Part shown: one piece after another, positions 5,059-50,706 of the stretch
Numbering within the stretch: the stretch's first letter is position 1
Layout: the number at the start of each line of letters is the position of its first letter
DNA from: Chloroflexota bacterium
GTDB taxonomy: Bacteria; Chloroflexota; Dormibacteria; Dormibacterales; Dormibacteraceae
NCBI GenBank assembly: GCA_005882135.1
Contig: VBDR01000025.1
Location: 62,001-126,000 of the forward strand
Reading direction: 5' to 3'
Length of the DNA stretch: 64,000 bases
Translations under genes and position numbers: made by a program
Notes under the pieces: model-generated
Told to the model about the DNA's origin: nothing
The model's database searches: none
The model's input: the letters and a program-made list of their open reading frames with translations, nothing else

Positions 5059-7662
5059 GTGCTTCGCCTCGCGTTCCGGGAGCTGATCGGACGTCGACTC
5101 GCGAGCGGGCTTGCGTTGGCCGGCCTGTGCACCGCCTGCCTCGGGTTTGCGCTGATGACGAGCGGGGCGCAGTACACGCAAGCCCGCCTTTCAAGCGACC
5201 TGAGCAAGGCATGGAACGGGCGCTACGACTTGCTGGTCAGGCCGTCGTACTCGGTTGGAGCGGCCGAGCAGCAGCTCGGGCTCATTCCACAGAACTTCAG
5301 CACCGGCTCATCGGGCGGCATCACCTACGCGCAGCTCGAGGCAATCCGCTCGCTTGCGGGCGTGGAGGTGGCGGCGCCACTGGTGATGGTCGGCAGCGTC
5401 AACTGGGACCTGGGTTCCTTCACCGTTGATCTCTCGGCGCCGGCCGCCGGCCTCACGGCTTACCGGGTGACGTACACCGAGCGCATCGATGCGGGGCTGG
5501 TCACTTACGGCATGGACGATCACATCGCGCTGGTCGCACATGATGGCTCGATCAACTTTCCTCCCCGCGGCCGCACTCCAACCCTGACCACCGGCGGCCG
5601 GACCATCGAGTGCGCGTACCCGCTCTTTTGCTGGGCGCCGACATTGTGCGAATCCGGACAGTGCGCGCCATATCCGGATCGTCCAAGCGACGGCATCGAG
5701 ATCTGGCAGCCGATCCCGATCGCAGGGGTCGACCCGGTGGCCGAGGCGCAGCTGGTCGGCCTCGACCAATGTGTCAAGTCTGGGCGCTACCTATCAGCCG
5801 CAGACCTTCCCCGATCCGATCCGGATCCGCCGGGCACCGACATTCCTGTGCTGGTCAGCTCGAGGTCATTTGTGGGCACGGACTTTGCCGCCAACATCTC
5901 GGCGTGGCCCGTCGTAGCGGTGACGACACCACCTTCGCTCGGCCCACTCCCGGCCAACGCAATGCCGCTGACCACGCGCACCTTCTCCTCCAACGATCTG
6001 TACCAGTCGCACCTGCAGGCGGTCGGCAGCGACGTCGACTTCTGGCCGATCTGGCGGGTCGGCCAGGCTGCCTACGAACGGTTGGGGAACGGCCGACTTC
6101 AGCCCTTGAGCGTCGCCGCCGATTCGTCGATCTACGCCCACCCGAACTTCACGCTTCTGGGTGGCAGCCCGGATGAGCTGAGGGTTCCTCCTGAATCGCG
6201 CTCGGGCTGGTATCGCCCGGTCGAGGCGAGCTATTACCGCGGCGTCTCGGGCGACCGGCGATGGCAGGTGGTCGGCACGTATGAGCCTGCCTGCTTGCCT
6301 GGATTCGACGCGCTGTCGCGAGCTGGCATGGAGACATATGCCGCGCCTCAGGTCACCCTTGGCGACGGAACTGTCCTGCGGCCCGATCGATCGGTAGGCG
6401 GCTACATCGCCAGCCCGCCCCTTCTTCTGACGAACCTCGCGGGCGCCGGCTGGTTGATGGATGGAACCCGATTTCAGGGCCAGAATTCGAGGGCTCCCAT
6501 CAGCAGCATTCGCATCCGGATTCGTTCCCTGCCCACGAACCTCGATCGGGCCCAGCGCCGCCTGGAGCAGGTGGCGGTGGAGATCCGCGACCAAACGGGG
6601 CTCAAGGTCGACCTGGTCCGCGGCAGCAGCCCCCAGTCGGTGCCGCTTCAGCTGCAGCTGGCCGGCACGGGTTATCCGGCGACCGAGGTCTGGACCAAAA
6701 AGGGCGTGGTCATCGAGTTCGACCGCGCCGTGACCGCACAGACCCTCGCGTTCCTGGCCGAGGCCGCGTCGCTTGGCGCGCTGCTCACGATGCAGACGGG
6801 TTTCACGGCCGTGAGGCGGCGGCGGCGTGAGTTCGGCATGTTGCGAGCCCTGGGTTGGAGCCCGTTCGATTCTTTTCGTCTCGTCCTGATCGAGCTGGGT
6901 GCGCTGGGGGCGCTCGCGACCTTGCTGGCCGTGCTGGTCTTGCTGGGGGCGAAGCTCGTTGTGCCCCAGCTGCAGGGCTACGTCCTGGCGGCGCCCCTGG
7001 TTGGTGTGGCAGCCGCAGCGGTCGGCGGCTTGATACCCGCCGCGATAGGAGCCCGGGCGCGGCCTGCCGAGGCGCTCGCCCATGGACGGTGGGCGGGCCT
7101 GAGCCGGAGGTTCAACTCCAGGCTTTTGGTGGGGGCGCTGGAGCTCTGGCGAGCATTCCGCGTTGAGGTGGTGACGTCGGCGATCCTCATCGGAGCCGGC
7201 TCGGCAACGGTGGGCGCGGTCGTCGCCGCAGCGAGTTCGTTCCTCCAGCGCCTGGACACCTCATGGCTGGGCTTCTACCTGGGCGGGCAGGTGAGGCCAT
7301 TCCACACCATCCTCGCGGTGACGGCCGCCTGCATCGCCGCCCTGGCCGCCGCCCAGCTGGCGACCCTGGCCTACCTGGAGCGGCGCCAAACGCTGGCTGC
7401 GCTGCGAGCGATGGGCTGGAGCAGGCTCGACGTGCTCATCTTCATCACCGGCGGAGGGCTGCTCATCTCGCTGCTGGGCATCGTGCTTGGCGCCGGCTGC
7501 CTGGCGGGCGCTGCGTTGGTGATGGGGACGCCGATCAGCGCGGTCATACTCCCGGCCGAGTTAGCGGCCCTCACGGGATTGATCTGCGGGCTGCTGGCCA
7601 TCGTGTGTCCCGCGGTGCTCGCCCTGCGGGCCAACCCCGCCGCCCTCCTGCGGGGCGAGTAA
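5059..7662 (+). CDS. Large ABC permease, FtsX/MacB family
   Basis: This 867-residue membrane protein has one N-terminal helix (about 10-35 of the mature frame), a very long extracytoplasmic region of some 530 residues, and two sets of FtsX-type helices. The first set carries the conserved cytoplasmic turn R-R-R-R-E-F-G-M-L-R-A-L-G-W (about 585-600). The second repeats the theme with A-L-R-A-M-G-W. It therefore looks like a fused two-lobe permease working with the ATPase just upstream. An in-frame codon at 5011 could also start it, but that would overlap the ATPase by 47 bp; GTG 5059 fits better. The substrate is unknown. Confidence 0.82.
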   Translation: MLRLAFRELIGRRLASGLALAGLCTACLGFALMTSGAQYTQARLSSDLSKAWNGRYDLLVRPSYSVGAAEQQLGLIPQNFSTGSSGGITYAQLEAIRSLAGVEVAAPLVMVGSVNWDLGSFTVDLSAPAAGLTAYRVTYTERIDAGLVTYGMDDHIALVAHDGSINFPPRGRTPTLTTGGRTIECAYPLFCWAPTLCESGQCAPYPDRPSDGIEIWQPIPIAGVDPVAEAQLVGLDQCVKSGRYLSAADLPRSDPDPPGTDIPVLVSSRSFVGTDFAANISAWPVVAVTTPPSLGPLPANAMPLTTRTFSSNDLYQSHLQAVGSDVDFWPIWRVGQAAYERLGNGRLQPLSVAADSSIYAHPNFTLLGGSPDELRVPPESRSGWYRPVEASYYRGVSGDRRWQVVGTYEPACLPGFDALSRAGMETYAAPQVTLGDGTVLRPDRSVGGYIASPPLLLTNLAGAGWLMDGTRFQGQNSRAPISSIRIRIRSLPTNLDRAQRRLEQVAVEIRDQTGLKVDLVRGSSPQSVPLQLQLAGTGYPATEVWTKKGVVIEFDRAVTAQTLAFLAEAASLGALLTMQTGFTAVRRRRREFGMLRALGWSPFDSFRLVLIELGALGALATLLAVLVLLGAKLVVPQLQGYVLAAPLVGVAAAAVGGLIPAAIGARARPAEALAHGRWAGLSRRFNSRLLVGALELWRAFRVEVVTSAILIGAGSATVGAVVAAASSFLQRLDTSWLGFYLGGQVRPFHTILAVTAACIAALAAAQLATLAYLERRQTLAALRAMGWSRLDVLIFITGGGLLISLLGIVLGAGCLAGAALVMGTPISAVILPAELAALTGLICGLLAIVCPAVLALRANPAALLRGE

Positions 7663-7664
7663 TT

Positions 7665-7710
7665 CACCTCCCCACCCTGTGGGGAGGTGCCGCCGAAGGC
7701 GCCGGAGGGG
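7665..7710 (+). repeat. Dispersed two-hairpin repeat, copy A
   Basis: A perfect 10-bp stem (CACCTCCCCA / TGGGGAGGTG, loop CCCTG) is followed by CGCCGAAGGCGCCGGAGGGG, which holds a second short stem. The same two-part design recurs at 33941 and 52562. It follows the permease stop closely and could also act as a transcription end or RNA-stabilising element. Confidence 0.7.
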
Positions 7711-7805
7711 CAGGACGGCGGGACGCGCCGGGGAGGGAAGGTCCGCGTCCCATTGGTATCGCGGCGCAGAATCGACCTGGGTAGGAGTGAGGTGCTGGGT
7801 GCGGC

Positions 7806-9050
7806 ATGGCTAAGGCCCGTGAGGGCGGTCCGATCGTGGTCCTGGGCTCGGGGATGGCCGGTGGGGTCGCGGTCAAGACGCTGCGCGAGGAGGGCTACGG
7901 CGGGCGTCTGGTCTTGATCGGGCCCGAGCCGACCTTGCCGTTCGGCCGACCGCCCCTTTCGAAAACCTACCTGCGAGGGGAAGAACAGCTTTCCGGCTGG
8001 CTCGTCAATCCGCCTGGCTGGTATGCGGAGAATGACGTCGAGCTGGTCGCGGCCACGGCTATTCGCCTCGACACCGCGGCGCGGCGGGTCGAGCTCGATT
8101 CGGGTGAAGCAGTTGGCTACGCCAAGCTGCTGCTCACCACGGGCGGCCGCAACCGGCGCCTGGAGGTTGCCGGCGCCGGCCTGGCGGGCGTCCACCAGCT
8201 GAGGACGGTCGCCGAGTGTGACTCGATCAAGAACGCCGTACGTGCGGGTGGCCGCGCGGTGGTGGTCGGCATGGGGTTCATCGGTTCAGAGGTCGCCGCC
8301 TCGCTGCGACAGCTCGGCATGGAGGTGATCGCAGTCCTCCCCGGCGGCGCACCGCTCGAGACCGTCCTCGGCGCCGAGATGGCCGAGGTCATGGCGGGTA
8401 TTCACCGTGACGCAGGTATCGAGCTGATCACGCAAGACCAGGTGGTCCGATTCGAGGGCGCCGCGCGGGTCGAGCGCGCGGTCACGAAAATCGGCCGCAG
8501 GCTGGACTGCGACCTTGCCGTCGTGGCAGTCGGCATCCAGGCTGACGTCGAGATCCTCAAGGGCACCGAGGTCGCGGTTGACAACGGGGTGGTCGTCGAT
8601 GCCCGATGCCAAACCAATATCAGCGAGATCTTTGCCGCGGGCGACGTGGCCAACCACCTGCATCCGCTGTTCGGCCGGATCCGCGTCGAGCACTACAACA
8701 ACGCCGAGAAGCAGGGCGCGGCCGCGGCCAGGTCCATACTCGGCTCAACGGCCGGGTACGGCTACCTCCATACCTTCTGGTCGGACCAGTACGAGCACAA
8801 GCTGGAGTACGTCGGGCACGTCCGCAGGTGGGACGAGTTCGTCGTCCGCGGCTCGACCCGGAACCGAAAGCTGGTCGGCTTCTACCTCGCGGAAGGGGTG
8901 CTGAGGGCGGCGGTGGGTCTCGATCGAGGCGGTGACCCCGAGTTGGACGAACACGGGGAGATGGCGGCCGCGGGCCGGCTGATCGCCAGAGGCGCCCGGC
9001 CCAGCCCGGCAGCGCTGGCCGACGACGACCAGGACCTCGACCGGCTATGA
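7806..9050 (+). CDS. FAD-dependent pyridine nucleotide-disulfide oxidoreductase, ferredoxin-reductase-like
   Basis: This 414-residue flavoprotein is of the ferredoxin/rubredoxin reductase type (BphA4-like). It has an N-terminal FAD-binding GSGMAGG (about 14-20), a central NAD-binding VVVGMGFIGSEVAAS (about 155-169), the second FAD motif with AAGDVANH (about 278-285) and a C-terminal reductase domain from about 320. There is no redox CxxxxC, as expected for this branch. It would pass electrons from NAD(P)H to a ferredoxin or Rieske protein, but none is encoded nearby. It stands alone, preceded by repeat copy A. A TGGGTAG heptamer lies at 7778-7784. Confidence 0.85.
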   Translation: MAKAREGGPIVVLGSGMAGGVAVKTLREEGYGGRLVLIGPEPTLPFGRPPLSKTYLRGEEQLSGWLVNPPGWYAENDVELVAATAIRLDTAARRVELDSGEAVGYAKLLLTTGGRNRRLEVAGAGLAGVHQLRTVAECDSIKNAVRAGGRAVVVGMGFIGSEVAASLRQLGMEVIAVLPGGAPLETVLGAEMAEVMAGIHRDAGIELITQDQVVRFEGAARVERAVTKIGRRLDCDLAVVAVGIQADVEILKGTEVAVDNGVVVDARCQTNISEIFAAGDVANHLHPLFGRIRVEHYNNAEKQGAAAARSILGSTAGYGYLHTFWSDQYEHKLEYVGHVRRWDEFVVRGSTRNRKLVGFYLAEGVLRAAVGLDRGGDPELDEHGEMAAAGRLIARGARPSPAALADDDQDLDRL

Positions 9051-11357: not shown

Positions 11358-12401
11358 CTAGCCCTTGACCGCACCGACAAGCAGGCCGCGAGCGATGAAG
11401 CGCTCGAGCGCGATCGCCATCGCGATCACCGGCCCGATCATGATCAGGATGAGCACGGACATGTACCACCACTGCGGTCCTCGGGTCGCGTTCTGCGCGG
11501 CCACCGTCAGCGGCAGTGTCTGAGCGTTGGCGCTGGTGAGGAACAGCGCGATCAGGTACTCGTTCCAGGCAAAGACGAGGACGAAGAGGAACGTGGCGAC
11601 GAGGCCTGGCACCGCCAGTGGGAGCACGATCGACCGGAAGATCCGGTAGGGCGACGCCCCATCGATCGCGGCGCTCTCTTCGAGCTCGATCGGCACGCTC
11701 TGGAAGTAGTCGCGCATCAGCCAGACCACGATCGGGAGGTGCGATGCGGTGTAGGCGATTATCAGCGCGCCCCACGTATCGAGCAGCTGGAGCTGCTGAA
11801 AAAAGATGTAGATGGGGATGATGGTCGCGACGGGTGGCAGCATGCGCTGGGAGATCATCCAGAACGCGATATCGTCGTTGCCGGCCCCGCGCCTGAAACG
11901 TCGAGCGACAGTCTGCAGCAGCAGCACGAACACCCCGGTCCCGGCTGCCACGCCGAGCGGCCACGGCCCGCCCGCAATCACGACCACGACCGTGATCGCG
12001 ACCGCGACCGCGAAAGACCCGATTGCGCCAAGCCCGACCCGGTAGCGCATGCGCACCAGGCCGTAGGCGGCCATCGAGCCGAGCAAAACGGTGATCGCCG
12101 TGCTCGTCAGCCCGACCACCACGGTGTTGAGGTAGGGCCGGAACGTGTCCTCTCGAAGGTCGAAGAAGATGTAGTGCCAGGAATCGAGCGTCGGCTGGAA
12201 GTCGCGCCACGGTACGTAGAACGGTCCGCCGTTGACATCGAGGGGCGTCTTGAGCGCGGTCACGGCCAGCCAGTAGAGAGGGAAGAGGACCACAAAGGTC
12301 CACGCGAAGAGGGCGATGTACGAAAGCGTCATCGCCGGAAATGGGACCGTCGTGGTGGAGACGGACCCGCGGCGTCTTCGAATGATGGCCATCGCGCTCA
12401 C
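11358..12401 (-). CDS. Carbohydrate ABC permease (MalG type) with hydrophobic insertion
   Basis: This is the inner half of a CUT1 sugar importer. The EAA loop EESAAIDGASPYRIF is clear (about 235-250). At 347 residues it is about 50-60 longer than usual. The extra length is one block after MAAYGLVRMRYR (about 125-185) rich in V, A, G and L, enough for two additional membrane spans, ending just before the normal ISQRMLPPVA helix. The start GTG overlaps the upstream permease stop as GTGA. The partner permease also carries an insertion. Confidence 0.85.
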   Translation of the reverse strand: MSAMAIIRRRRGSVSTTTVPFPAMTLSYIALFAWTFVVLFPLYWLAVTALKTPLDVNGGPFYVPWRDFQPTLDSWHYIFFDLREDTFRPYLNTVVVGLTSTAITVLLGSMAAYGLVRMRYRVGLGAIGSFAVAVAITVVVVIAGGPWPLGVAAGTGVFVLLLQTVARRFRRGAGNDDIAFWMISQRMLPPVATIIPIYIFFQQLQLLDTWGALIIAYTASHLPIVVWLMRDYFQSVPIELEESAAIDGASPYRIFRSIVLPLAVPGLVATFLFVLVFAWNEYLIALFLTSANAQTLPLTVAAQNATRGPQWWYMSVLILIMIGPVIAMAIALERFIARGLLVGAVKG

Positions 12402-13576
12402 GCCATCGCCGTCACCCGACGGCGGAACAGGTTGACGTAGGAGATGCCGACGAAGGTCACGACGATCAGCAGCATGTAGGCAACCGCCGCGGAACCACCG
12501 ATGTCCAGCGCTCGCCAGATGGTGTAGGCGTGAAGGGTCAGCGATTCGGTGGCGGTTCCAGGCCCTCCGTTGGTCAGGACATTGGGCAGGTCGACGATCT
12601 TGAAGCCTTCGATGATGCGAATCAGCACCACCGTGGTGGTCGCCGGAAGGATCTGCGGAAACGTGATCCTCCAGAAGACTTGCCAGCGGTTCGCGCCGTC
12701 GACGACCGCCGCTTCGGTCAGCTCATGGGGCAGGGTCTCGATCGCAGCCAGCAAGACGATGAAGATGAACGGCGTCCACTGCCATACGTCGCCGATCATC
12801 ACCGCCAGCCGCGCGCCCCAAGGATTTGTGACCCAGGACACGTCGGTCAATCCGAAATGGGCCCACAGCGGATAGAGCGGTCCCTTGCTCGTATCCGTGA
12901 GCATCCGGAACAGGTACGCAACGCCGACGGGCGTGATCATCATCGGCAGCAGGAAGACCACGCGGAAGAAGCGCCGGCCTGGGAGGTGCTGGACCACGAG
13001 CAAAGCGAGGCCGAGCCCGAGCAGGTACTGGACGGACACGTCGACGGCGACGTAGACGATCGTCACGACCAGAGTGCCTGGACGGCCGCTCGTCAGGATC
13101 GTATTGACGATCAGCCAGACAAGCGCCCCGGCGATTGCGGTCGTCACAACGCGGCCGGCAAGCCCTCCCAGAGTGCGGTTGGGGCCGCGCGCGTACCGAT
13201 AGAGGAGGACGGCGAACAGGCCGTAGATCACGAGCAAGACCGCGATACCGACGGGCGTTAGCGGGCGGGTCACGCCGAGAAAGTGCGGCTGGTCGATGCC
13301 GAACAGCAGCTTTGCGTAGTTGCCGAAGCCGACGAACTTCAGCTCCACGCCGCCCTCCGAGAAGCCCAGGCGTGAGAGGGACACATAAAGCGAGGCGAGC
13401 AGCGGGAAGATCGAGAAGGCGAGAATGACCACCACCGCCGGGAGGATGAACACCAGGCTTGCACCGCGGTCGAGTCGCGCCCCGACCGGACGCCACCATG
13501 ACGCGGCGGTCCTCAGCGCGCGCGGCGACGCATGAATGCTCACGGAGACGGAATCCTTTTCATCAGTTCCTGGCAC
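12398..13576 (-). CDS. Carbohydrate ABC permease (MalF type) with hydrophobic insertion
   Basis: This is the partner permease of the same CUT1 importer. The EAA loop ELTEAAVVDGANRWQVF is present (about 285-300). It has 392 residues against about 290-310 for ordinary members. The surplus sits between KLLFGIDQPHF and QYLLGLGLALLV (about 95-185), includes R-Y-A-R-G-P-N-R-T, and is mostly hydrophobic. It follows the binding-protein gene after a 48-bp gap holding a strong stem-loop. No ATPase is encoded in the locus, so a shared MsmX/UgpC-type ATPase elsewhere is likely. Confidence 0.85.
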   Translation of the reverse strand: MPGTDEKDSVSVSIHASPRALRTAASWWRPVGARLDRGASLVFILPAVVVILAFSIFPLLASLYVSLSRLGFSEGGVELKFVGFGNYAKLLFGIDQPHFLGVTRPLTPVGIAVLLVIYGLFAVLLYRYARGPNRTLGGLAGRVVTTAIAGALVWLIVNTILTSGRPGTLVVTIVYVAVDVSVQYLLGLGLALLVVQHLPGRRFFRVVFLLPMMITPVGVAYLFRMLTDTSKGPLYPLWAHFGLTDVSWVTNPWGARLAVMIGDVWQWTPFIFIVLLAAIETLPHELTEAAVVDGANRWQVFWRITFPQILPATTTVVLIRIIEGFKIVDLPNVLTNGGPGTATESLTLHAYTIWRALDIGGSAAVAYMLLIVVTFVGISYVNLFRRRVTAMA

Positions 13577-43521: not shown

Positions 43522-43890
43522 CTATACCGCCATCAGTCGATTGACCTCCTCACGCAAGAGCGCGAGGTCGACGGGCTTGGCAAGAAAGCTGTCGACGCCG
43601 CTGCCTTCGAGCGACCGCCGCACATCGTCCGAAAGGTCGCCGGTGAGCGCGATGACCTTGATCGGACGCAGCACATACCGTTTCCGCAGCAGCTGCAGGA
43701 CCTCAATGCCGTCGTACATCGGCATATGCACGTCGAGGATCACAAGCTGGAAGTCGCCGCTCGAGCCCATCTCGAGGGCGCGATTGCCATCGAAGGCGGT
43801 CGAGACCGAGAAGCCCTCAGCCTCGAGAAAGTAGGTGAGCAGCTCCGCGCTTGCGGGGTCGTCGTCGGCGACAAGGATCCGGGCGCTCAC
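43522..43890 (-). CDS. Stand-alone receiver (CheY-like) protein
   Basis: It is a single receiver domain of 122 residues with acidic D9-D11, phospho-acceptor D53 (VILDVHMP), T83 (ALTGD) and K105 (AKPVD), all present. It has no output domain. It is coupled to the preceding receiver by ATGA and lies downstream of the hybrid kinase, so it probably accepts phosphate from it. Confidence 0.9.
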   Translation of the reverse strand: MSARILVADDDPASAELLTYFLEAEGFSVSTAFDGNRALEMGSSGDFQLVILDVHMPMYDGIEVLQLLRKRYVLRPIKVIALTGDLSDDVRRSLEGSGVDSFLAKPVDLALLREEVNRLMAV

Positions 43891-44294
43891 TGAGCCGTGA
43901 CGCGCGTCCCATCTCCATTCCCCGCCGCCACGAACTGCCGAACCTCAAAGCCAAACGTCCGCGTGTCGATCGGCTTCGATATATACCCGGCGCATCCCGC
44001 ATTCAACGCCTGCTGGCGGTCGCCGGTCATGGCGTGCGCGGTGAGCGCCACGACCGGGATTGCGGACGTGGCCGGATCTGCTTTGAGCACGCGCGTCACG
44101 GTAAGCCCGTCCTGGCCCGGGAGCTGGATGTCCATGAGGATCAGGTCCGGCACGCACTCGCGAAGCTCATCGAAAACCTCGGGTCCGGAGGCCGCGATCC
44201 GCACCTCGTAACCTTCGAGCTCCAGCACGGCGCGCGCGAGCAGCTGGTTGGCCTCGTTGTCTTCGACGACCAGGATCAGGCTTGGCTTGGTCAT
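43887..44294 (-). CDS. Stand-alone receiver (CheY/DivK-like) protein
   Basis: It is a single receiver of 135 residues with E11-D12, D55 (LMDIQLPG), T85 (ALTAHAM) and K107 (SKPID). The ALTAHAM segment is typical of receivers in phosphorelays. The start overlaps the hybrid kinase stop and its own stop overlaps the next receiver, so the three are made together. Confidence 0.9.
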   Translation of the reverse strand: MTKPSLILVVEDNEANQLLARAVLELEGYEVRIAASGPEVFDELRECVPDLILMDIQLPGQDGLTVTRVLKADPATSAIPVVALTAHAMTGDRQQALNAGCAGYISKPIDTRTFGFEVRQFVAAGNGDGTRVTAQ

Positions 44295-46891
44295 TTCCCT
44301 CCGTTGCGGTGGGCGAGCACGCCTTTGAGCAGCCCGACGATGTCCGACGTCGCGACCGAGCCGCGGCTCAGGATCTGGGAGACTCGACCATTGAGCTGAC
44401 GCATGTCGGCCTCGGTCAGGTTGGCCGCGGTCAGGACCATGATCGGCGTGTCTCGCGTCTTCTCATCGGCGCGCAGCGCCGCGACCACGTCGAAGCCGGT
44501 GACCTCCGGCATGATCAGGTCAAGGAGCACAAGGTCGGGGTTCGACGACTTCGCAATCTCGATCGCCTCCCGGCCGCCTGACGCCGGCAGGACGGTGAAG
44601 CCGGCGGGCTCAAGCGCCTCGGTGAGCAACGTTCGATTGGCCGCCTCGTCGTCGACCACCAGCACTCGGACCTTGCGTGTGCTCGGGCCGCGCTCGACGT
44701 CGGGCCGGCCGAGGCGCTCCACCAGCGCCGAGGTATTAACTGGCTTGACGAAGTAGTCGATCGCGCCCAGCGCGATCCCGAGCTCGGGGTTGTCGACCAC
44801 GCTCACGACAACGATTGGGATGGCGCTTGTCGCATCGTCGCTCTTCAATCTGGTGATCACCTCCCAGCCGTCGAGCTCGGGCATGATGATGTCGAGCGTG
44901 ATCGCCGCCGGCTTGAGCTGGCGCGCGCGCTCCAGCGCCTCGTTCCCGGATCGCGCCACCTCGGTGCGGTAGCCGGCGCTCGCCAGCTGGCGGGTGAGCA
45001 GCTCCGCAGCCGCTGGATCGTCTTCCACCACCAGCACCAGCGGCCCGGAGCCGTGGCCGTTCACCAAGCCGGCGACCGCACGCTCGCTTGGCGTCTGCAC
45101 CCTTGGGTGGAGCGGCAGGACCAGGGTGAAGATGCTGCCCCTGTTGACCTGGCTGGTCACGCGCACATCGCCGCCGTGGAGGGCGGCGAACCGCTTCGTA
45201 AGCGCAAGCCCGAGACCCGTTCCTTCGTGCTTGCGGCCGGGTCCTGGATCAACCTGGTGGAACTCGTGGAAGATCTGTTTCATGTCCTCGTCGGCGATGC
45301 CGATTCCGGTATCGGCAACTGAGATCTCGACCGTGTCCTCCGTGCGCACGGCGCCAATCGTCACCGCCCCACCGTCGGGGGTGAACTTGATCGCGTTGGA
45401 GACGAGGTTCAGCAGCATTTGCTTGAGCTTGCCGGCGTCTGCGATCACCTCTCCCGCGCCGTCCACGTTCGCCCGTAGCGTGATGGCCTTCTTGGCCAGG
45501 AGCGGCTCGACCGTCTTCGCGACCTGGTCGACGGCGTCGGCTACAGACACGGGCTGCAGACGCAACTCCATCTGGCCTGCCTCGACCTTGGAGAGGTCGA
45601 GGATATCGTTGATCAGCCCCAGCAGGTGCTTGCCGCTGGTCAGGATCTGGCCCTGGAAGCGCTTGCGAGTGGCCTCATCAAATTGGCCCTCGCGCGCGTC
45701 GGTGAGGAGCTCGGAGAAACCGATGATCGCGTTCAGGGGCGTGCGCAGCTCGTGGCTCATGTTGGCGAGGAACACGCTCTTGTGGCGGCTCGCTTCCAGG
45801 AGCGCGGAGTTGGTCTGTTCCAGCTGAGTGATCAGGTGGCGGCGGTCGAGAGCGGTCACGAATGCGCTCATGAGCTGCTGGATGCGGTTCATCTCGTCGC
45901 CGCCAAAACCGGGCGTGAAGGGGCCGGCCATGACGACGAGGGTCCCCGAACCGGACAGTCCTGCAATGGGCAGTGCCATCACGCTGCTTTCCGAACTCGA
46001 GAGCGTGATCCTTCTCGGACCGCGACCAAGGCTTGCGAACTGGCCGCCCAGCTCGGCGACCTGCGCCGTGCTGACGCCGCGAACCGCGGTCGGCCGGCCT
46101 GAAGAGTCGAACAGCACGCCGGATGCTCCGCCCACCAGTCGCATCGCCCACTCCAAGGCGCGCCTGGCCAGCGCGTCGCGGTCTTCGCTGAGCTGGAGCT
46201 CTTCCATGAAGGCGCGCAGGCCTTCCTCTTCGGGCGCTCGCCACTGTCTGCGCAGCCACGAGGGCGGCGAGAAGCTGGCGTAGAGCAGCGGGACGATCGC
46301 CAAGGCAACCAGCTCGAAGATGATCTGCACCAGCGGCTGCTTCACGAGCAACGCCACGGGGACGGCGACCACCAGCAACACGACGAATCCGCCGAAGCCA
46401 AGGCTCAGCGAACGCAGCCGCCACCCCTGCACCGCGGGCAGGCTGCGCGCGACGAGCCAGAAACGGACAGTTGGCTCGCCCACGCACGCGCACCAGACGA
46501 CGATCAGGAAGACAAGCGAAGCAATCAATACCCACTGCGGGGCGGCGGTTGCCTGTGCCGCAAGTGGAAAGACGCTGGCAGAGGCCAGCGCGACGATCGC
46601 GACGACATGCCAGCGCCGAGGGAGGGGGATGATGGTGTCTCGGTAGAGGAGGAGCGCGTAGGCCGAGGCCATGAAGCCGGCAAGGTTGATCACGCCGAGC
46701 CAGGGCACCATGACAGGTAGGTGCGCCTGGACACGGCCCAAGCCGGATACCGCAGCCAGCAGGATGATCGCGAGCGCGAGGAAACCGAGCGAGCGGTCAC
46801 GGCGCCTCAGCCAGCTGATCGCGGTCACCAGGCCAAGAGCCACAAACGCGATCGCAACCGCGTCCTGCAGGTAGGGGACGAGATCTTTCAT
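44291..46891 (-). CDS. Membrane hybrid histidine kinase with two C-terminal receivers
   Basis: This 866-residue protein has about seven membrane segments (1-210), a GAF-like region (about 230-345), HisKA with phospho-acceptor H380 (SHELRTPLN), HATPase with N-box N499, DTGIGI (527-532) and GTGLGL (557-562), receiver 1 (about 617-728, D667, K716) and receiver 2 (about 741-858, D791). Receiver 2 has no lysine at the conserved site (ILSRG instead), so its phosphorylation switch may be altered. It signals from the membrane to its own receivers, the coupled stand-alone receivers and perhaps the receiver of the upstream kinase fusion. Confidence 0.9.
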   Translation of the reverse strand: MKDLVPYLQDAVAIAFVALGLVTAISWLRRRDRSLGFLALAIILLAAVSGLGRVQAHLPVMVPWLGVINLAGFMASAYALLLYRDTIIPLPRRWHVVAIVALASASVFPLAAQATAAPQWVLIASLVFLIVVWCACVGEPTVRFWLVARSLPAVQGWRLRSLSLGFGGFVVLLVVAVPVALLVKQPLVQIIFELVALAIVPLLYASFSPPSWLRRQWRAPEEEGLRAFMEELQLSEDRDALARRALEWAMRLVGGASGVLFDSSGRPTAVRGVSTAQVAELGGQFASLGRGPRRITLSSSESSVMALPIAGLSGSGTLVVMAGPFTPGFGGDEMNRIQQLMSAFVTALDRRHLITQLEQTNSALLEASRHKSVFLANMSHELRTPLNAIIGFSELLTDAREGQFDEATRKRFQGQILTSGKHLLGLINDILDLSKVEAGQMELRLQPVSVADAVDQVAKTVEPLLAKKAITLRANVDGAGEVIADAGKLKQMLLNLVSNAIKFTPDGGAVTIGAVRTEDTVEISVADTGIGIADEDMKQIFHEFHQVDPGPGRKHEGTGLGLALTKRFAALHGGDVRVTSQVNRGSIFTLVLPLHPRVQTPSERAVAGLVNGHGSGPLVLVVEDDPAAAELLTRQLASAGYRTEVARSGNEALERARQLKPAAITLDIIMPELDGWEVITRLKSDDATSAIPIVVVSVVDNPELGIALGAIDYFVKPVNTSALVERLGRPDVERGPSTRKVRVLVVDDEAANRTLLTEALEPAGFTVLPASGGREAIEIAKSSNPDLVLLDLIMPEVTGFDVVAALRADEKTRDTPIMVLTAANLTEADMRQLNGRVSQILSRGSVATSDIVGLLKGVLAHRNGGK

Positions 46892-46900
46892 CCGCTCGCC

Positions 46901-48745
46901 TCAGGCCGCGCCCAGGCTTGCGAATGTCGACACGTCGCGGACGAACAGGTCGACCACCTCAGGGTCCCACTGGCACTTCGCGCCCACCGACAGGACCGCG
47001 ACCGCCTCGTCGATCGTCTTTCGCGCCCGATACGGGCGGTCGTTCACGAGCGCGTCGAAGGCGTCGCACACGGAGACGATCCGGGCCAGGCGAGGGATGC
47101 TCGCGCCGGCAAGCCGATCCGGGTAGCCGGTCCCGTCGAAGTGCTCATGGTGGTTGCGGATGATCGGCAGCAGACCGGCGCTAGAGCGCAGTGGCGCGAC
47201 GATGTTGGCGCCGATGATCGGATGCAGTTGCATCCTGGTCATCTCCTCAGCGTCAAGCGGTCCCGGCTTGAGCAAGATCGCATCCGGCACGCCGATCTTG
47301 CCGATGTCGTGGATGAGTCCACCTCTGTACAGGGCTTCCAGGTCGGAAGAGGGGAGTCCCAGGCAGGAGCCGATCCGGCGCGCCGACTCGGCGACTCGCT
47401 GCGTGTGGGCTTCGGTGTACGGATCCTTCGCCTCCACGGCCGCGGCCAGGGCGAAGATGACGTGCTCGGCGCTGTCCAGCGAGTCGTACACGGCCTTGAG
47501 CCGGAGCGCCGAGCCAACGCGGGCGACGAGCTCGATGCGGTCGACCGGCTTGGTCATGTAGTCGTCCGCACCAGACTCGAGGGCGCGTACGCGATCGGCG
47601 GTGCGGTCGAGAGCGGTGATCATCACGACCGGAACCAGCCTGGACGCGGGATTTGACTTGATGCGCCCGCACACTTCGTAGCCGTCCATGCCTGGCATCT
47701 GCACGTCCAGCAGCACCAGGTCGGGGAGCGCCGCATTGATCGCCTTGAGGGCACTGACTCCGTCCTCAGCTGTGCGCACCTGGCACTCCACGCCCGCGAG
47801 GCAGGCTTCGATCAGCTCCCGATTCGCGGCCCCGTCGTCGACCACCAGGACCACTGGCAAACGGTCGGTCCGGGAAAGGCGGCGCGTGACGGGCATCGCG
47901 CCGGCGGTCTCATCGCCCTGGCCGTCAGGCCATGCCGCCGGCTTGAGGGCGGCGATGAACGCGGCCGCCGAGAGGAAACGCTCTTCAGGTCGCTTCGACA
48001 GCGCGCGGCGCAAAACGTCCTCGATGTGCGCGGACAGCTCACCTCTCAGCTCGCGGGTGGCGGGCATCGGTTTGGTCACGTGGGAGAGCAGGACTGCGGC
48101 CGGCGTGTCGGCGCCGAAGGGTACCCGCCCGGTGAGCATCTCGTAGGCAACAATCGCCAGTGAGTAGAGATCCGATGCGGGGCCCATCGGTTCGTCGGCG
48201 GCCTGCTCCGGCGACATGTATTCAGGCGTGCCCATCACGGTTCCGGAGCTGGTCACGCGTCGTATCGAGCCGGCCATCTTGGCCAGGCCGAAGTCCGCCA
48301 GCACCGGCGTGCCGTCTCGGTGCAGGAGGATGTTTGAAGGTTTGATGTCCCGGTGGAGGATGCCCTGCGAGTGGGCGTAATCGAGTGCGCCCCCCAGCTG
48401 CTCGAGCAGCTGGACCGCTTCGCGCAGGGGCATGGGGTGGCCGACCCTGTCGGCCAGCGTGCCGCCCTCGACCAGCTCCAGGACGAGGTAGGCGAGCTCG
48501 TCGTCGTAGCCGAAATCGAAGATTTCCAGGATGTTGGGGTGCCTGAGGCGAGCCACCGAGCGCGCCTCCTGCTGGAAGCGCTCGCGATATCCAGGGTCGT
48601 CGGCAAAGAAGTCGGGCAGGACTTTGATCGCGACGTAGCGGTCCAGACCGGGATGGTAGGCGCGGTACACGCTCGCCATCCCGCCGCGGCCGATGTGCTC
48701 GATCACTCGGTAAGCACCGAGGGTCATGCCTTCGCGGATCTTCAT
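46901..48745 (-). CDS. Ser/Thr protein kinase - receiver - HD-GYP fusion protein
   Basis: It has 614 residues and three complete modules. The kinase (about 12-268) has IGRGGMASVY, K41, HRD (131-133), DFG (151-153) and SPEQAA. The receiver (about 297-412) has D303-D304, phospho-acceptor D347 and K399. The HD-GYP domain (about 425-605) has H447, HD (479-480), HHEHFDGTGYP with GYP at 540-542 and SVCDAFDAL. No residue known to be essential is missing. It has no membrane segment. Phosphorylation input, kinase output and cyclic di-GMP breakdown would meet in one chain. It lies 9 bp upstream of the hybrid kinase and is coupled to a membrane microprotein. Confidence 0.9.
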   Translation of the reverse strand: MKIREGMTLGAYRVIEHIGRGGMASVYRAYHPGLDRYVAIKVLPDFFADDPGYRERFQQEARSVARLRHPNILEIFDFGYDDELAYLVLELVEGGTLADRVGHPMPLREAVQLLEQLGGALDYAHSQGILHRDIKPSNILLHRDGTPVLADFGLAKMAGSIRRVTSSGTVMGTPEYMSPEQAADEPMGPASDLYSLAIVAYEMLTGRVPFGADTPAAVLLSHVTKPMPATRELRGELSAHIEDVLRRALSKRPEERFLSAAAFIAALKPAAWPDGQGDETAGAMPVTRRLSRTDRLPVVLVVDDGAANRELIEACLAGVECQVRTAEDGVSALKAINAALPDLVLLDVQMPGMDGYEVCGRIKSNPASRLVPVVMITALDRTADRVRALESGADDYMTKPVDRIELVARVGSALRLKAVYDSLDSAEHVIFALAAAVEAKDPYTEAHTQRVAESARRIGSCLGLPSSDLEALYRGGLIHDIGKIGVPDAILLKPGPLDAEEMTRMQLHPIIGANIVAPLRSSAGLLPIIRNHHEHFDGTGYPDRLAGASIPRLARIVSVCDAFDALVNDRPYRARKTIDEAVAVLSVGAKCQWDPEVVDLFVRDVSTFASLGAA

Positions 48746-48900
48746 GCGACCAGCCCCAGCAAGACGAGGGCCGCCACGGCCGGTGGCGAGAGCATCAGCC
48801 CCGCCGGCACCACGAGGAGCCCAAGGGTGAGGGCCTGCCGGCGCGCGCGCCGATCATCCGATGCCGCTCGGACTGATCGCCCACCGACAGCCAGCGCCAT
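48742..48900 (-). CDS. 52-residue membrane microprotein preceding the kinase fusion
   Basis: The ATG is at 48900 and the stop overlaps the kinase start as ATGA. A basic N-terminal half (SDDRRARRQ) is followed by two hydrophobic stretches, LTLGLLVVPAGLML and AVAALVLLGLVA, separated by SPP, making a helical hairpin. I do not recognise a family. Coupling suggests equimolar synthesis with the soluble kinase fusion, so a membrane anchor or sensor partner is possible. Confidence 0.6.
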   Translation of the reverse strand: MALAVGGRSVRAASDDRRARRQALTLGLLVVPAGLMLSPPAVAALVLLGLVA

Positions 48901-48977: not shown

Positions 48978-48993
48978 CTACCCACATGGGTAG
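48978..48993. promoter_or_regulatory. Perfect 7-2-7 palindrome, NarL/LuxR-type site
   Basis: CTACCCA-CA-TGGGTAG is a perfect inverted repeat with the heptamer spacing used by NarL/FixJ-type HTH proteins. It lies in the 111-bp gap between the LuxR-type regulator stop and the signalling operon start, so it is probably the operator by which that regulator controls the operon. Confidence 0.65.
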
Positions 48994-49011
48994 TTTTGTT
49001 AATCCAGAGGA

Positions 49012-50706
49012 TTAAAGCCAGCCGTCCTTGGCCGCTTGATGGGCCAATTCGGTGCGGTTCGACGCACCCGTCTTCTGGAGGATCTGGCGGACGTGGAATT
49101 TGATCGTGTTCTGGCTCAGGTGGACCTGGGCCGCGATCTCGCGGTTGGTGAGGCCTTCGACCATCAAGCGGATGATCTGGATCTCGAGCAGGCTCAACCC
49201 TTGAGGCGGCGATGGCGCCCGCTGCGGAGCCGCGGTTCCCTGCGACGTCTTACGCAGCCGCTCTTGCATCGCCGCGTTGTCGATTGCGATGGCGGCCACG
49301 CTGCCGAGGGCATCCAGGAACGAGACCCATTCCTGGTCGGGACTCAACGGGGTGCGGTGATACACCTCGAGCGCGCCCAGCAGCTTGCCGCGGGTGATCA
49401 GAGGCACCGCCCCGTAGGCCTTGAAGCCCTCGCGTGCGAACAGGGATCGGCGTCGAAACTGAGAAAAGGCGCTCAGCGCTGTCAGGGTTTCGATCCGCCG
49501 GCCGGTCAAAGCCCGGCCGGGCAGGCCCTCATCGACGGGGAGCCGGTAATCGGGCACCGCGGTGGCCAGGAAACCGGTGCTCGCCGCCAGCGCGAGCATG
49601 TTGTCCGACTCCTCCAGCAGCAGGACGTCCGCCGCATCCACCTTCAGCTGCGCGGTCACCTGGTCGAGGATGACCTTGAGCGTGAGCCTGAGGTCAGGGC
49701 TTGCGCTCAAAGCCAGGCTCAGGCTCTGCAGTGAGCCGAGCCGCTCGAGGCGCACGACGGCGTCCTCGTAGAGCTGGGCGTTTTCGATTGCGAGCGCGGT
49801 CCGATCGGCGATCGCCTGCATCCAGATGATGTCTTTTTCGGTCAGCGGGTTGGAGCTGCGCCGCTCGTACAGGGCAAGTGTGCCGACGACGGCGCCGCGT
49901 GCCCGCATCGGCACGACCATCACACCTGAGGTCTCGATCGGGATCGGCAGCGGGTGTTCCGCCACGTACGCGGCCACCCCCGGCGCGATCATCTCCCAGA
50001 GCTCGCTCATCGGGACCTGTGGCAACAGGAGGGGCTTGCCCGATTCGATGACACGCTGCGAGATCCCGGTGGTCGGCGCCTGGCCCGGGTGGTCAAGCGA
50101 CGCTACGTGCCGGTTGATGTACTCGACGAGCTCCGAGTTGGCGACGTCCGCGGCCACCACCAGCGACGTGCTCGGGTCCTTGTTCAAGAGCGACGCCACC
50201 CAGGTGCCTGGTCTCATCCTGCTCAGGGCGCTCGTGACCACATGGAGGATGGAGTGGGTTTCGAGGCGGGCGTCGGCCAGCTCGCCGACAACCTCGTTGA
50301 CGATGTGCTCCCCGGCGCCGCGGCTGGTCAGCCTGCTGCGCGCGAACAGGTGGGAGACGTCGCACAGGCTGGCCGTCACAAGGGTCACCTCGCCGGCCAC
50401 GTTCAGCTGCGGCACCGCGTCGACCTGGATCCAGATGTCGGTGCCCTCGGGGCGGCTCGCCCTGGCCAGGACGCCGCGGACGGCCTGCAGGCTCTTGAGG
50501 GTTGCGGTGACCGGATGCACGGACATTGGACCTTCGGGCGCTTCGAGGACCAACCACTCGGCGTCCTCCGCGTAGGTCCCGAGGAGGCGGTCGCGGCTGA
50601 GCCCGAGCAGGCCGACGGCGGCGTCATTGGCGTCGATGACCTGGCCGGCCCGGTCATAGATGAGGATCGCGCCGGGAACGTCCTTCCAGCTGAGACTTGC
50701 GGCCAC
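49012..50706 (-). CDS. PAS-GAF-GAF sensor with LuxR-type DNA-binding domain
   Basis: This soluble one-component regulator has 564 residues: an N-terminal PAS domain (about 5-120; GAILIYDRAGQVIDANDAA), two GAF-like domains (about 145-310 and 330-475) and a LuxR/NarL HTH (about 500-560; EGLTNREIAAQVHLSQNTIK). It has no receiver, so it senses a ligand, redox state or small molecule directly. It lies upstream of the signalling operon on the same strand, and a TAATTT box ends 7 nt before its GTG start, suggesting a leaderless mRNA. Confidence 0.87.
   Translation of the reverse strand: MAASLSWKDVPGAILIYDRAGQVIDANDAAVGLLGLSRDRLLGTYAEDAEWLVLEAPEGPMSVHPVTATLKSLQAVRGVLARASRPEGTDIWIQVDAVPQLNVAGEVTLVTASLCDVSHLFARSRLTSRGAGEHIVNEVVGELADARLETHSILHVVTSALSRMRPGTWVASLLNKDPSTSLVVAADVANSELVEYINRHVASLDHPGQAPTTGISQRVIESGKPLLLPQVPMSELWEMIAPGVAAYVAEHPLPIPIETSGVMVVPMRARGAVVGTLALYERRSSNPLTEKDIIWMQAIADRTALAIENAQLYEDAVVRLERLGSLQSLSLALSASPDLRLTLKVILDQVTAQLKVDAADVLLLEESDNMLALAASTGFLATAVPDYRLPVDEGLPGRALTGRRIETLTALSAFSQFRRRSLFAREGFKAYGAVPLITRGKLLGALEVYHRTPLSPDQEWVSFLDALGSVAAIAIDNAAMQERLRKTSQGTAAPQRAPSPPQGLSLLEIQIIRLMVEGLTNREIAAQVHLSQNTIKFHVRQILQKTGASNRTELAHQAAKDGWL

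Follow-up and report, generated by a model that had tools for sequence, protein, structure and literature searches.

A Ser/Thr kinase, a receiver and a predicted HD-GYP phosphodiesterase joined in one protein of a Chloroflexota family

The case for cross-talk between Hanks-type Ser/Thr kinases, two-component systems and cyclic di-GMP (c-di-GMP) signaling has usually been made with separate proteins. In other bacteria, Hanks kinases are known to phosphorylate receivers on Ser/Thr, PknB-type kinases are activated by dimerisation, and the HstK-type proteins of cyanobacteria are Ser/Thr kinase-histidine kinase fusions. The window analyzed here, which means the whole 64,000-nucleotide stretch of DNA, contains a gene whose product joins a Ser/Thr kinase, a receiver (REC) and an HD-GYP domain. 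This gene, its domains and its neighbors are as follows.

49012..50706, minus strand: PAS-GAF-GAF-LuxR/GerE transcriptional regulator, upstream of the operon (domain matches)
48978..48993, no strand: CTACCCA-NN-TGGGTAG, an inverted repeat in the gap that separates the operon from the regulator gene
48742..48900, minus strand: small ORF, 52 aa, with one hydrophobic segment (23-52) and a stop codon that shares 4 nt (ATGA) with the start of the fusion gene
46901..48745, minus strand: kinase-REC-HD-GYP fusion gene, 614 aa, complete, in a single uninterrupted frame
47972..48712, minus strand: Hanks-type (PknB-like) Ser/Thr kinase domain, residues 12-258 (Pfam Pkinase, E 9.1e-50)
47852..47971, minus strand: linker, residues about 259-298 (orthologue alignment)
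47516..47851, minus strand: REC domain, residues 299-410 (Pfam Response_reg, E 5.6e-29)
46955..47446, minus strand: predicted HD-GYP phosphodiesterase domain, residues 434-597 (Pfam HD_5, E 1e-34)
44291..46891, minus strand: hybrid histidine kinase, 866 aa (HisKA, HATPase_c, REC, REC), with a multi-pass hydrophobic N-terminus
43887..44294, minus strand: single-domain receiver, 135 aa, with a 4-nt overlap onto the histidine kinase gene

The original prediction gave no strand for 46901-48745; the plus-strand frame across this span is broken by stops. The Pkinase, Response_reg and HD_5 matches follow one another from the N- to the C-terminus, each well beyond its Pfam cut-off, and codon-position GC is similar across the three modules. 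The original prediction had placed three complete modules in one chain and named their key residues, K41, HRD 131-133 and DFG 151-153 of the kinase, D347 and K399 of the receiver, and HD 479-480 and GYP 540-542 of the phosphodiesterase. All of these residues were found at these positions and are invariant in the 19-22 orthologues aligned, which together with the Pfam matches bears out the completeness of the modules.

The kinase domain has all hallmarks of the Hanks type (Gly loop, Lys of VAIK, αC Glu, HRDxxxxN, and DFG), and its core residues G19-G22, K41, E60, H131-R132-D133, N138, and D151-F152-G153 are invariant in 22 orthologues. The activation-loop residues T165 and T173 are likewise invariant in the fused kinases. 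A pseudokinase reading was considered and rejected. The nearest solved chains are PknB, StkP, and PknA. The protein lacks the full PknB-PASTA architecture, since the NCBIfam PknB_PASTA_kin score was 311.6 against a cut-off of 450 with the match confined to residues 10-274, and neither a transmembrane nor any other hydrophobic membrane segment was found in its 614 residues. In the receiver, the acidic pair D303 and D304, the phospho-acceptor D347, T377, and K399 are kept in 50-51 of 51 relatives.

The HD-GYP domain carries the signature HDxGK ... HHExxDGxGYP and the metal ligands (H447, H479, D480, K483, H508, H532, H533, D561, and G540-P542), and these ligand columns are conserved across the 51 relatives; a degenerate HD-GYP reading was considered and rejected. 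The AlphaFold model of the REC-HD-GYP half reached a pLDDT of 92.7 and showed a continuous helix (residues 403-440) running from REC α5 into HD-GYP. The modelled REC superposed on that of PleD with Z 23.2 and rmsd 1.1 over 134 residues, and the modelled HD-GYP matched PmGH (4mcw, Z 24.0), DvhD (23.9), and PA4781 (22.7). The full-length model, built with 19 close orthologues, was poor (pLDDT 59) and was set aside. The position aligned to Glu185 of PmGH, the ligand of the third metal in that structure, is Y443 (Y in 15, F in 5, and H in 1 of the orthologues). The domain thus departs from the trinuclear PmGH type and more probably holds two metals, like PA4781. The best PDB sequence match of the domain is V-cGAP3, a 3',3'-cGAMP phosphodiesterase, and 3',3'-cGAMP is also a possible substrate of HD-GYP domains. 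The predicted substrate can therefore be c-di-GMP or 3',3'-cGAMP. The genome has six GGDEF matches, four of them with an intact GG[DE]EF motif, so that c-di-GMP is probably made in this bacterium.

On the minus strand, the genes lie in the order LuxR-type regulator, 52-aa ORF, fusion, hybrid histidine kinase, and single receiver. The histidine kinase gene starts 9 nt past the stop of the fusion gene and encodes the HisKA motif SHELRTP with H380. Its second receiver is without the usual Lys-Pro near the end (QILSRGS), and the first retains VKP. In most orthologous loci with enough flanking sequence, a LuxR gene precedes and a histidine kinase follows, the exceptions being L034 and L039; the neighboring histidine kinase of the original prediction is thus a conserved partner in synteny. 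Relatives of the single receiver occur at L050, L176, L177, L183, and L184, and at L184, the locus of genus g11, an extra receiver gene lies between the fusion and the histidine kinase. Most orthologues are preceded by a small ORF that shares this 4-nt overlap and measures about 47-60 aa in the genus and more in g2 and g3; both its sequence and its length vary much, with little sequence conservation between genera.

The inverted repeat CTACCCA-NN-TGGGTAG is present as a single copy in the window's genome. Nearly every member of the genus has it, exact or with one to three mismatches and with a varying centre, at about -234 to -254 relative to the fusion gene. At L038 the arms have changed symmetrically, to CTATCC..GGATAG. 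The repeat is a probable operator and a probable site for the adjacent LuxR-type regulator. A second inverted repeat, TTAATCC-TCT-GGATTAA (48999-49015), overlaps the stop codon of the LuxR-type gene.

In the related genera g2, g3, g4, and g9, operons with the same histidine kinase contain a REC-HD-GYP protein that starts directly at the receiver (L176, L177, L181, L182, and L183; 69-72% identity). Because the same operon occurs there with a kinase-less protein, the kinase has been added at the N-terminus of a two-component c-di-GMP module that already existed. Shortly upstream of the L182 gene lies a two-segment small ORF that by eye resembles that of L039, the fused g3 locus, so that loci of this kind seem to switch between having and lacking the kinase. 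The L182 REC-HD-GYP continues without a frame change into the N-terminal portion of the histidine kinase (5571-7808, genome G018), the remainder of which lies in a separate frame; a different fusion or a frameshift would account for this. At L179, the window's own genome also encodes a REC-HD-GYP paralogue that lacks the kinase (66% identity) and, some 5 kb from it, a further HD-GYP protein (5619-6635 and 11843-12532); a different histidine kinase lies between the two.

The fused kinase domains formed one clade (support 81/90), separate from the free-standing kinases of the family (about 55-57% identity). The REC-HD-GYP tree required three changes between the fused and free states, and a single fused clade was not rejected (p-AU 0.12). 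The simplest account, still hypothetical, is a single joining event with later losses or copies. The mixed alignment with free kinases and free REC-HD-GYP proteins was left out because the kinases were misaligned, with about 18% identity to the query.

We favor, with a probability of about 0.5, a model in which the receiver, set by the histidine kinase, governs HD-GYP and, via dimerisation, the PknB-like kinase. The membrane histidine kinase, whose gene begins 9 nt downstream and which is the presumed phosphotransfer partner, would sense a signal and phosphorylate D347. The dimer state of the receiver would shift via the long α5 helix into HD-GYP and set c-di-GMP hydrolysis, and the same rearrangement may bring two kinase domains together, which would phosphorylate each other's activation loops and then other proteins. 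The receiver would be one switch with two outputs, removal of the second messenger and Ser/Thr phosphorylation. The histidine kinase gene adjoins the fusion in orthologues and equally adjoins the kinase-less REC-HD-GYP in related genera, indicating that REC-HD-GYP is its constant partner. Since the pairing persists where the Ser/Thr kinase is absent, the path from the histidine kinase through REC to HD-GYP is likely and is the best supported part of the model. In the comparison of fused with free forms, we found no conserved Ser/Thr clearly special to the fused REC-HD-GYP, although cis-phosphorylation would predict such residues; this favors outside targets. Together with the dimer activation of PknB-type kinases, this favors the kinase as a second output.

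It is possible but rather unlikely that the Ser/Thr kinase is instead a second input, which would respond to another cue, for example via the small membrane protein, and phosphorylate REC, HD-GYP or the neighboring histidine kinase, thereby tuning c-di-GMP hydrolysis. The translational coupling of the small membrane ORF to the fusion in most orthologues is consistent with this, as is the precedent of Hanks kinases acting on receivers, yet the divergence of the small ORF between genera argues against it. T398, which adjoins K399, is T in 15 and S in 5 of the fused forms versus A in 4, S in 2, and T in 1 of the nearest free forms; it is a weak lead in favor, and that no other conserved Ser/Thr clearly special to the fused REC-HD-GYP was found counts against this reading.

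Less probable still, the modules may be independent and joined just for co-expression or co-localisation, without direct regulation between them. This would fit the linker, of which the 20 residues 276-295 have no invariant position in 22 orthologues, and the related genera that manage without the kinase in the same operon; even the window's own genome retains a copy that lacks the kinase. Against it, the fusion is retained by every genus member, and P269-A270-A271-W272 at the end of the kinase is invariant in orthologues. Moreover, fused-specific substitutions cluster in REC α1 (310, 312, 313, 315, 317, and 319), six of nine such positions falling within ten residues. This cluster marks a candidate contact, whose partner could be the Ser/Thr kinase or else the histidine kinase; a changed histidine-kinase specificity would complicate the model of a receiver with two outputs. 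The cluster is no more than a lead, because the compared sequences are related.

An artefact, in which an assembly error, as the original prediction had allowed for, or a frame error had joined two genes, was looked for and can be dismissed, as the same join recurs in 17 separate genomes of the genus and three further genera at 66-85% identity. The fusion was present in 17/17 genomes of the genus, G005 and G014 showing pieces that end at contig ends, and a second copy occurs in G001. When 100 related genomes were searched, full-length matches of 73-85% identity were obtained within the genus, and the fusion also occurs in the same-family genera g2 (G017, G030, and G041), g3 (G031), and g11 (G035). 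This recurrence indicates that it is neither chance nor a joining error. Among the matches listed, at least two named records carry it (VBGP01000007.1 and VBGM01000018.1), both Chloroflexi soil MAGs.

A full-length protein profile was run on about 1,600 genomes of seven phyla, with 400 Chloroflexota genomes and samples from the phyla of a Myxococcales, a Poribacteria, a Planctomycetia, an Acidobacteria, a Desulfotignum, and a Spirulina genome; 13 single genomes were searched as well. In the large samples the best 3-6 candidates per genome were scored, with high thresholds outside Chloroflexota; a long-linker fusion might have been split and hence missed. Within this scope no full-length match was found outside the window's family, and the best matches beyond it were the kinase alone or REC-HD-GYP alone. 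Most other phyla, including Pseudomonadota and Bacillota, were covered just by six short peptide patterns among the matches listed. In the long-frame matches in other phyla (L160, L161, L169, and L170), no match to this kinase was found in the REC-HD-GYP frame. A text search of the literature, which covered subscription papers in part and had the supplementary architecture tables of PMC8846402 outside its range, found no description of kinase-REC-HD-GYP.

That one histidine-kinase-set receiver allosterically switches both Ser/Thr phosphorylation and c-di-GMP removal in one chain, in a single Chloroflexota family so far, is a tentative proposal that we place somewhat below even odds. If true, phosphorelay, Hanks kinase and second messenger would be coupled by allostery within one molecule. 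The mutual action of the three activities put forward in the original prediction is likewise a hypothesis. Related genera keep this operon either with or without the kinase, a clear before-and-after that would allow a direct test of what a Ser/Thr kinase contributes to a phosphorelay-controlled phosphodiesterase.

Among known systems, the fusion resembles the RpfG-type and PA4781 REC-HD-GYP regulators in having REC followed by HD-GYP, an adjacent histidine kinase gene, and the ligand residues except the third-metal Glu of PmGH; it differs in the whole Ser/Thr kinase ahead of the receiver. With PknB, StkP, and PknA it shares the kinase core, the activation loop and the nearest solved structures, but it has a receiver and HD-GYP instead of a transmembrane segment and PASTA repeats. 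Like the HstK-type proteins it joins a Hanks kinase to a two-component module; in HstK that module is the sensor kinase, and here it is a receiver whose output is a phosphodiesterase. A survey from 2005 includes a Clostridium thermocellum protein with Ser/Thr kinase, TPR, and GGDEF (gi 23020879; PMC1262709), which likewise has a domain for c-di-GMP turnover on the same chain as a Ser/Thr kinase, whereas its GGDEF makes c-di-GMP, TPR lies between, and a receiver is not listed (PMC1262709). Since kinase-GGDEF (PMC1262709) and Ser/Thr-His kinase fusions are described, the joining of these signaling systems is not unprecedented. The original claim that the architecture was not known holds for the three-domain order, which in the papers and genomes searched was not found outside one bacterial family, and needs qualifying in view of the related Ser/Thr kinase fusions. 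Kinase-REC-HD-GYP is thus not a new system but a new architecture within a known kind.
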